5,305 nt of DNA from an uncultured Pseudoflavonifractor sp. GTDB taxonomy: Bacteria; Bacillota_A; Clostridia; Oscillospirales; Oscillospiraceae. The stretch's first letter is position 1. Every line of letters starts with the position of its first letter. Under the pieces are notes generated by a model. The model did not search any database. It was not told the DNA's origin and was given only the letters and a program-made list of their open reading frames with translations. The stretch covers positions 1 through 5,305 of the forward strand of contig CANPNN010000107.1 in NCBI GenBank assembly GCA_947575475.1. Reading direction: 5' to 3'. Positions 1-1,502 of this stretch are shown in pieces. A program made the position numbers and the translations under genes.

Positions 1-198
1 GGCGCCGTCAGCTCCCGCAGCGCCCGTGGGACCAGTGGGGCCGGCAGGACCCTGGACGCCCGGAGCACCATCAGCGCCGGTGGCCCCGGTCGCCCCGGTG
101 GGTCCGGTAACGCCGGTGGCTCCGGTAGCGCCTGTGGCGCCGGTGGGGCCGCCGGCAGGGCCCACAGGTCCGGTAGGCCCGGTGGGGCCTGTGGCTCC
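1..198 (-). repeat. Gly-X-Y collagen-coding tandem repeat
   Basis: This stretch encodes 21 complete Gly-Pro/Ala/Val-Y triplets plus a partial one, read on the minus strand. At DNA level it is a degenerate 9-nt periodic array (units of the type GCC-ACC-GGC), prone to slippage and length variation. One extra Gly codon (151-153) interrupts the triplet phase (GPA-G-GPT). The repeat continues past the left edge. Confidence 0.9.
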
Positions 199-495
199 CT
201 GCATGGGGGAGGCCGTGAGGGCCCCCTGCATTTTGGCTTTCAGGAAAAGCTGGTTCTGCACGGCGGTCTCCAGCATACTGCGGACGCTCTCGTTGGCAGC
301 CAGCACATCGCTGACCGTGGCGGCGGGACCGCTGAGACCGGGCAGAGTGCCCAGGATATATTGAAGCTTCTCGCCCTCGGCGTTGAGGATATGACTCAAT
401 CCAAGCTCCTCCATGGCGATGGAGGAGAGGATCTGATTGACTGCGTCTTCCCGGTCAATAGGCGGGTCAACAATGGGAAAACTGGGCAGAGACAT
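1..495 (-). CDS. Collagen-like surface (probable spore-surface) protein, C-terminus beyond window
   Basis: Partial gene: 165 codons are visible and the frame is open at the left edge. Residues 1-99 form a non-collagenous, mostly helical N-terminal domain whose core contains SIAMEELGLSHILNAEGEKL (residues 25-44). From G100 onward the protein is pure Gly-X-Y collagen repeat (21 full triplets visible), with Thr in the Y position in 13 of 21 and one phase break at G115. The ATG at 495 is preceded on the minus strand by AAGGAG (506-511). Collagen-like proteins with Thr-rich triplets, such as BclA of Bacillus, form glycosylated hair-like filaments on the exosporium, and a C-terminal trimerising domain would be expected further left. 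No signal peptide is visible, which fits assembly on the spore from the mother cell rather than secretion. The neighbouring divergent gene has the same N-terminal domain. Collagen nature is certain; the spore location is inferred. Confidence 0.85.
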   Translation of the reverse strand, partial: MSLPSFPIVDPPIDREDAVNQILSSIAMEELGLSHILNAEGEKLQYILGTLPGLSGPAATVSDVLAANESVRSMLETAVQNQLFLKAKMQGALTASPMQGATGPTGPTGPVGPAGGPTGATGATGATGVTGPTGATGATGADGAPGVQGPAGPTGPTGAAGADGA

Positions 496-524
496 GGTTG
501 AGGCTCTCCTTTCAAGTTGAGAAA

Positions 525-543
525 CGCGCCGCGCGACGGCGCG
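525..543. promoter_or_regulatory. Inverted repeat in the divergent intergenic region (GC-rich, 7-bp arms)
   Basis: CGCGCCG (525-531) and CGGCGCG (537-543) are perfect inverted arms around a 5-nt loop. The site lies about 30 bp upstream of the collagen-like gene start, between any promoter for that gene and its ribosome binding site, so it could be an operator or a 5'-leader hairpin. The arms are seen directly; function is unknown. Confidence 0.4.
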
Positions 544-565
544 CAAACCATCCTATGCCTTTGCC

Positions 566-597
566 GCAGATCCGGCCCCAACAGGAACCGGATCTGC
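566..597. promoter_or_regulatory. Perfect 10-bp inverted repeat in the divergent intergenic region
   Basis: GCAGATCCGG (566-575) and CCGGATCTGC (588-597) are exact inverted arms with a 12-nt loop. The site sits near the middle of the 191-bp gap (496-686) between the two divergent paralogous surface genes. No T-run follows on either strand, so it is not a conventional terminator. A shared operator or a cruciform/hairpin leader is possible; this is inference. Confidence 0.5.
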
Positions 598-648
598 CCG
601 TCTGCCATAGACTGAGGCGGCGGCATAGATATCCTGCCGCACATCTCG

Positions 649-667
649 ATCCCGGCTTCTTCGGGAT
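649..667 (+). promoter_or_regulatory. Small leader hairpin before the plus-strand surface gene
   Basis: ATCCCG (649-654) and CGGGAT (662-667) pair perfectly, with one additional G-U pair possible inside (655/661). The stem ends 7 nt before the GGAG ribosome binding site (675-678) of the downstream gene, so it would lie in its 5' untranslated region. It may affect mRNA stability or translation; the function is not demonstrable here. Confidence 0.35.
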
Positions 668-674
668 GAACATT

Positions 675-678
675 GGAG
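675..678 (+). promoter_or_regulatory. Ribosome binding site fixing the start at 687
   Basis: GGAG lies 8 nt before ATG 687. The earlier in-frame ATGs at 498 and 666 lack a comparable site. The chosen start gives MSMPSFP, matching MSLPSFP at the start of the divergent paralogue. Confidence 0.75.
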
Positions 679-686
679 TTTTGAGT

Positions 687-1502
687 ATGTCCATGCCTTC
701 CTTTCCCCCGCATGGGGCGGATATGACCCGGGAAGAGGCTATAACCATGATCATTGCATCCATCGCCATGGAGGAGCTTGCTCTGAGCCATATCCTCAAC
801 GCCGAGGGCGAGAAGCTGCAATATATCCTGGGGACCCTGCCAGACACAAGTCCCTGTGCCTGCCCTGAGGATGTACTGGCGGTTAACAAAAGTGTGACCG
901 ACTTGGTGGAGGCGGTGACACAAAACCAAATGCTGTTGAAAAACAAGCTTTCCCAAGTGCTGGAGTTCTGTCCGCGTCCTTCTCCGCCTTGCAAACCAAA
1001 GCCGGCCCCTTCAGATCCTTGGGCCTGTCCCTGCCGGCCGGAGCCCTGTGAGCCTTCATGCCCGGAGCCCCATTCGGGACAAAACCGCACAAAGAGCGTC
1101 ATCCAACTGATCGGACAGAAGGAGAGGATGCTGTGGAGTCCGGACTGTCGCCTGCCCTGGAAATTGCGGTGCAGTGTGGGCGAGGGGACCTGCTGTGAGG
1201 GGCGCGCCTCCGCGCAGGTCCGCCTCGATCCGGAGAGGTCCTACGCGGTGCAGTATACAATGAATGTCTGCGCCGTGTCTGCAGTGGAAGGGACCATCCT
1301 TCTCAAACAGTCGCCTTGCGGCACATTTACTGAAGCGCTGCCCTTGCAGTTTTCTGTGGAATGCGGCCGGAAGACTCTGCGCCATGCCGCTGTGATACAT
1401 CCTTGCAGGAACAGCGGGTGCGATGTGGAACTGTTTTTGGTGTTGGAGGCCAAAGCGCCAATATGCGTGGAGCGGGCCGTGATGGATATAATAGAGCTTT
1501 GA
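687..1502 (+). CDS. Cys/Pro-rich surface protein with BclA-like C-terminal domain, paralogue of the collagen-like protein
   Basis: This 271-residue protein is complete. Residues 1-92 align almost without gaps with the N-terminus of the divergent collagen-like protein; residues 21-52 are identical at 28 of 32 positions. Residues about 95-130 are a Cys/Pro-rich stalk (CPRPSPPCKPKP, then CPCRPEPCEPSC) where the paralogue has its collagen repeat. Residues about 135-271 alternate short hydrophobic beta strands, and the pattern of LDPERSYAVQYTMNV (180-194) and the final MDIIEL recalls the jelly-roll C-terminal domain of BclA-like collagen proteins. That resemblance is by eye only. There are 18 cysteines in total, suggesting disulfide cross-linking as in exosporium and coat proteins. 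No signal peptide or membrane segment is seen. A strong terminator follows the stop. The gene is clearly real; the spore-surface role is inferred, and I know of no named family for the N-terminal domain. Confidence 0.85.
   Translation: MSMPSFPPHGADMTREEAITMIIASIAMEELALSHILNAEGEKLQYILGTLPDTSPCACPEDVLAVNKSVTDLVEAVTQNQMLLKNKLSQVLEFCPRPSPPCKPKPAPSDPWACPCRPEPCEPSCPEPHSGQNRTKSVIQLIGQKERMLWSPDCRLPWKLRCSVGEGTCCEGRASAQVRLDPERSYAVQYTMNVCAVSAVEGTILLKQSPCGTFTEALPLQFSVECGRKTLRHAAVIHPCRNSGCDVELFLVLEAKAPICVERAVMDIIEL

Follow-up and report, generated by a model that had tools for sequence, protein, structure and literature searches.

A divergent gene pair of gut Oscillospiraceae that probably encodes A-ENA-type spore-fiber proteins with stalked TNF/C1q-like heads

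Introduction

Three described spore-surface systems come closest to the gene pair analyzed here. The A-ENA fiber is represented by PDB entry 9IHH, titled 'Ex vivo spore-silk A-ENA fibers' and released 2026-03-04, whose 101-residue subunit matches the sequence of a stand-alone Bacillus thuringiensis protein. The F-ENA fiber uses DUF4183 subunits of a β fold, with two collagen-like proteins, F-Anchor and F-BclA, forming its anchor and tip, and BclA, tethered by its N-terminus, makes the hairy nap of the exosporium (PMC11952670). For the ENA proteins of Bacillus paranthracis, which are made late and in the mother cell, control by sigma-K was thought likely by the authors (PMC12921279). Here we describe two divergently transcribed genes, termed A and B, in a 5,305-nucleotide stretch (the window) of an uncultured Pseudoflavonifractor sp. 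(contig CANPNN010000107.1, assembly GCA_947575475.1), together with a third paralog, C, found in relatives.

All three systems resemble this locus in part. The N-terminal domain of A and B (the base domain) is homologous to the 9IHH subunit over nearly its whole length, including the N-terminal proline stretch, and is predicted to adopt the same two-helix fold; however, 9IHH is a bare subunit, whereas here it begins proteins that continue into a stalk and a head. With F-ENA, the locus has in common collagen-like proteins with a fiber-type domain or a TNF/C1q-like head, a gene cluster and a putative spore appendage, but a Pfam scan of A and of the visible part of B gave no DUF4183 match up to an E value of 1. 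The collagen stalk and BclA_C head of B and C in relatives, and the predicted BclA fold of the A head, recall BclA itself; by contrast, the N-terminus is occupied by the A-ENA-type domain instead of a short exosporium leader peptide, none of which was detected (no leader model beyond the Pfam scan was applied), and A has a Pro/Cys-rich stalk. A literature search found no paper on A-ENA with spores and none on the family PF26595 discussed below, with bioRxiv preprints and most subscription papers outside its reach.

We propose, at a probability of about 0.6, that A, B and C are late mother-cell spore-appendage proteins of A-ENA type, in which a fiber domain bears stalked TNF/C1q-like heads. The computed basis of this proposal comprises the homology and predicted fold of the base domain, the fold of the head, the recurrence of the module and the promoter motif.

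A base domain of A-ENA type

The A protein (P0002) is complete, and 165 residues of B (P0001) are visible, the window edge falling inside its collagen-like repeat; a purine-rich ribosome-binding site precedes each gene. Residues 1 to ~95 of A and of B each match nearly the whole 9IHH subunit, with E values of 1e-17 and 2e-15, respectively; with the two proteins reaching this subunit independently, their homology goes well past chance. Every listed database match of either protein carries PF26595, as read from the annotations of the matches (the model itself is absent from the Pfam set scanned). On sequence homology, the base domain is assigned to PF26595 and to the class of a solved spore-fiber subunit. 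An initial annotation, made from the DNA alone, had recognized the divergent pair and its common N-terminal domain, which a single hidden Markov model now finds in 192 open reading frames (ORFs) of 80 loci plus the window; its statement that the domain has no named family is superseded by PF26595 and the A-ENA structure.

The same annotation called residues 1~92 of A and B near-identical, which applies to the core from SIAMEEL to LGTLP (27/29 positions) but not to the domain as a whole, where 55 of 92 aligned positions are identical (60%). Across 45 loci, A and B of the same locus average 55% identity, compared to 76% between A domains and 83% between B domains of different loci. The two are less alike within a locus than either is across loci, and are therefore old paralogs kept apart rather than products of a fresh duplication.

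The predicted model gives the base domain a two-helix fold, as in the 9IHH subunit, with a modest Z score and with the 9IHH sequence included in the alignment. The N-terminal prolines P4 and P7 are invariant in the base-domain alignment (A4), this stretch aligns with 9IHH, and the core residues are preserved between decorated and bare forms of the domain. Some other Clostridia (L075:2307-4601, L074:8315-9085 and L079) join it to quite different C-terminal parts. A phage origin was also considered and rejected: the bare Bacillus subunit P0243, a query that reaches close relatives only, produced 42 pattern matches in viral contigs, none of them a relative (A and B were not searched there). A plasmid search with P0243 returned a single record, a collagen protein of B. 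velezensis encoded on pDMB05-1.

Stalks and heads

The two proteins diverge after the base domain. The collagen-like repeat predicted in the initial annotation is present in B (PF01391, E value 4e-8) and not in A, which has the Pro/Cys-rich stalk likewise described there. The BclA-like head of A went undetected in the Pfam scan, and its assignment as a head of BclA_C / TNF-C1q type comes from the predicted model, in which residues 132~271 adopt the BclA / TNF-C1q fold. BclA_C likewise closes the complete B and C proteins of relatives (examples are P0144 and L004, and there are 90 closed collagen-type ORFs); the window's B exits before any head, and BclA_C is known for B from relatives only. 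The stalks therefore differ more than the tips, and the heads of A (by its predicted model) and of B/C belong to one fold class, so that the proposed swap of stalk and tip domains is half right, the exchange of tips having weak support. Exactly 370 residues were counted in 18 of 26 complete B proteins (L004, L014, L031, L035, L037, L039 and others), with differing repeat sequences; this constancy suggests selection on stalk length.

The initial annotation also envisaged a disulfide-cross-linked layer. As a defining trait this is not supported: among the 44 complete plus-strand proteins in which cysteines were counted, L072 was set aside because its plus-strand gene is a collagen gene, and the remaining 43 A proteins have 0~18 stalk cysteines (median 6), with none in four of them. 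No cysteine is invariant in the alignment of A proteins (A1), C125 and C154 being nearly so. For the window's own A protein, which has six stalk and ten head cysteines, such a layer is a weak suggestion.

A recurrent three-gene module

A scan of genome contigs gave 536 stretches, of which 477 were confirmed and the best 80 were kept as loci. These best 80 are labeled as Oscillospiraceae (Oscillibacter, Lawsonibacter, Flavonifractor, Colidextribacter, Pseudoflavonifractor and others), as other Clostridia (Defluviitaleaceae, Clostridium minihomine, Eubacteriales), or as Firmicutes or bacterium only. In 49 sources, the window included, two base-domain genes form a divergent pair, with a different layout in L072, L074 and L079. 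In the module of the relatives, A, with its Pro/Cys stalk and predicted BclA-fold head, diverges from B, in which collagen is followed by a BclA_C head. The third base-domain gene, C, lies directly after B in 29 of the 39 loci that remain when the ten with B cut by a contig or window end are left out (31 by script, a count that also took in L002 and L047, whose second ORF is a fragment of a broken B). Besides these two, the ten uncut loci lacking C directly after B comprise four with a split B (L005, L007, L029, L032), two with no C seen (L001, L016) and two of other layout (L072, L074).

Predicted back-to-back promoter sites of sigma-K type

The published sigma-K consensus has KCACM at -35 and GCATANNNTA at -10 (PMC3416734), separated by 14~16 nucleotides; sigma-E shares the -10 element, and the C of the -35 distinguishes the two factors (PMC517825). 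In the A-B intergenic regions, CATAnnnT(A/G) occurs on the plus strand in 48/49, on the minus strand in 47/49 and on both in 47/49, against at most two regions with both in 100 dinucleotide shuffles; since the regions are related and not independent, these motif counts and those that follow overstate the number of events. With AC 16~17 nucleotides upstream, the corresponding figures are 35, 45 and 33 (shuffles: at most one on the plus strand and at most one on both), and the stricter CATAnnnTA is found in 31, 34 and 26 regions, respectively. The AC-containing motif reaches a density of 3.66 per kb in these regions, compared to 0.042 per kb in the remainder of those loci, a difference of ~87-fold. 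These patterns point to two back-to-back sigma-K-type sites between A and B across the relatives. In the window, the plus-strand site is near the consensus and the minus-strand site lacks the -35 AC, which is present for the B promoter in 45/49 regions.

Sigma-E in place of sigma-K was rejected, with CATACAnT in 1/49 plus-strand and 0/49 minus-strand regions and the -35 AC in most; given the common -10 element, sigma-E may still have a share in control. A GGTTCC..GGAACC dyad between the promoters (window 574-589) supplies both -35 elements in many relatives and could also be an operator; one half is degenerate in the window (GGCCCC). Downstream lies the stem-loop GCGGCA..TGCCGC, followed by a second, weaker hairpin; the alignment used (A5) sets window positions 606-640 beside the corresponding stretch of 25 relatives. 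Its fold has ten pairs, and three of these show double changes. The covariation term is only -0.19, and conservation of the structure is therefore a suggestion; the stem-loop is perhaps an mRNA-stabilizing 5' end of the A transcript.

Assembly model and alternatives

The window's pair probably builds or decorates a spore-surface fiber in gut bacteria. In the proposed mechanism, the mother cell would transcribe A, B and C late in sporulation from the twin promoters, and the proteins, in which no export signal is evident, would be deposited onto the spore from there. The base domains would assemble with their own copies and with paralogs, as A-ENA subunits do, and the stalks would hold the heads outwards, the collagen triple helix of B and C as a long thin brush and the Pro/Cys stalk of A as a shorter arm. 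By analogy with F-BclA (PMC11952670), the function may be adhesion or clustering of spores. The modular spore-surface system of the initial annotation, with a common base and different stalks, is supported by the 9IHH homology, the third paralog in 29/39 loci and the twin sigma-K-type sites.

The stand-alone subunit of ~100 residues that typifies A-ENA is not what the window encodes, since A has 271 residues and B continues into collagen. Nor was a bare subunit seen among the matches in eight genomes holding fusions, where frames with a full base domain have at least 125 residues, the shortest lying at a contig edge. A bottle-brush, that is, a fiber or patch built directly of decorated subunits, is therefore the likeliest arrangement, rather than a bare fiber with a separate tip protein. 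The latter would place A, B and C at the ends of an A-ENA fiber, as tip fibrillum and anchor, with another, bare protein for its major subunit, in the way that F-BclA and F-Anchor serve F-ENA (PMC11952670). This has a precedent there, and stand-alone subunits do exist, of 93~105 residues in Bacillus and other Firmicutes and of 103~113 residues beside longer fusions in L074, L075 and L079; but with no such frame among the matches of the eight genomes, one of which, G001, has only A and B there, we consider it an unlikely arrangement.

In known relatives, collagen stalks and TNF/C1q heads form trimers, and a short N-terminal trimer would suffice to hold them. The base might accordingly be only a small domain for oligomerization or docking, attaching a BclA-like nap to the coat or exosporium, with no long fiber in this clade, much as BclA is tethered by its N-terminus (PMC11952670). 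However, the base aligns along nearly the entire fiber subunit, including the stretch with the invariant P4 and P7, and keeps its core residues between decorated and bare forms, which leaves simple docking less probable still. That the proteins are vegetative cell-surface or biofilm adhesins with no spore link, in the manner of the collagen-like Clp proteins that affect biofilm and adhesion in B. amyloliquefaciens FZB42 (PMC4319854), is very improbable in view of the twin sigma-K-type sites, the spore-silk title of the homologous solved entry and the lack of any signal peptide or LPXTG motif evident by eye, no predictor having been run, in A and the visible part of B.

The hosts were compared for sporulation markers. 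The base domain was found in 14/291 genomes of a class-wide sample and in 13/120 of a family sample. Spo0A_C is present in all 33 base-domain genomes, eight closely examined ones included, which fits hosts that form spores without establishing the connection. One result weighs against the spore-appendage proposal, namely that the enrichment of SpoIVA is not convincing. SpoIVA occurs in 208/291 class-sample genomes. It is present in 23 of 26 distinct base-domain genomes (all except G056, G259 and G282); for class-sample genomes that lack the domain, the figure is 196 of 277 (Fisher p = 0.07). In this comparison, 12 of the 26 come from the family sample and the background from the class sample; within the class sample alone, 12 of 14 base-domain genomes have it (p = 0.36). 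Occurrence in non-sporulating hosts, which the initial annotation had counted against a spore role, was partly checked in this way, and the outcome is not decisive.

If the spore-appendage proposal is right, spores of these anaerobes should bear a coat of decorated A-ENA-type filaments, with possible consequences for their adhesion and transmission in the gut. The homology ties uncharacterized collagen-like proteins of gut Oscillospiraceae, such as a Flavonifractor plautii relative annotated merely as 'collagen-like protein', to a recently solved class of spore fibers. The system also offers a direct test of whether a fiber domain can polymerize while bearing a trimeric stalk and head.

Serine-recombinase elements in the collagen repeat

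Elements that carry a large serine recombinase (~560~575 residues) at the border interrupt the collagen repeat of B or C in several relatives; the two recombinases scanned have Resolvase, Recombinase and zinc-ribbon domains. In L071 (2487-7353), 4.4 kb separates the two halves of B; recombinase, MFS and MarR genes occupy this interval, and the 3' half retains BclA_C. The halves are 46.9 kb apart in Oscillibacter sp. 1-3, where the 3' half (collagen and BclA_C) stands directly ahead of C. Both gene halves thus remain in these two cases. An identical border sequence is present in L029, with a partial recombinase, in L032, on a contig not long enough to reveal a recombinase, and in L064, there in a C gene; L007 and L084 have related borders with a recombinase adjoining a 3' half.

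Excision of serine-recombinase elements at sporulation is described for sigK-skin, spsM-SPbeta and gerE-gin (PMC5595907). The likeness is that such an element splits a sporulation-related gene, here B or C; the differences are that the target is a collagen repeat and that excision from it at sporulation is hypothetical. By this analogy, a sigK-skin-like developmental switch is conceivable yet doubtful, with simple disruption as a possible alternative. A fuller version of the bottle-brush proposal is tentative: with no bare pilin, A, B and C, expressed from the shared pair of divergent sigma-K promoters, would co-polymerize, so that spores of gut Oscillospiraceae would carry a heteropolymeric bottle-brush, and the collagen stalk of B/C would double as a serine-recombinase attachment site that could switch the stalk off or restore it in sporulation.

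Other features of the window

Table 1. Positions of the features discussed (window coordinates unless a contig is named)
Feature	Position	Strand	Remarks
Gene B, 5' part	1..495	-	ATG 495; A-ENA-type base domain and collagen-like GXT repeat; exits window
Collagen-like repeat of B, residues 100-165	1..198	-	PF01391
Base domain of B, residues 1-93	217..495	-	Relative of A-ENA fiber subunit 9IHH
Ribosome-binding site of B, AAAGGAG	506..512	-	
Predicted sigma-K-type -10 of B, CATAGGATG	549..557	-	GGGGCC in place of -35 AC
Predicted sigma-K-type -10 of A, CATAGACTG	606..614	+	AC at 587-588, 17 nt upstream
Stem-loop GCGGCA..TGCCGC	620..640	+	Near expected 5' end of A transcript; conserved, little covariation
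Ribosome-binding site of A, GGAG	675..678	+	Invariant in alignment A5
Gene A, 271 aa	687..1502	+	ATG 687, stop 1502; base domain, Pro/Cys stalk, BclA-like head (predicted)
Base domain of A, residues 1-93	687..965	+	Two long helices in model: 15-48, 60-92
Pro/Cys-rich stalk of A, residues 94-135	966..1091	+	From sequence
Head of A, residues 136-271	1092..1499	+	TNF/C1q jelly roll, closest to BclA / F-BclA heads (predicted)
Split B in L005 and L083/L082	G002:C1 ~1,063,285-1,110,213		

The rest of the window (1572-5269) is a minus-strand metabolic set with a GntR/FCD regulator, two half-transketolase genes and an iron alcohol dehydrogenase. The NCBIfam model for sulfoacetaldehyde reductase scores 134 bits in this set, far under its 700-bit cut-off. 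We take the split transketolase set to resemble sulfosugar pathways with a two-subunit transketolase.
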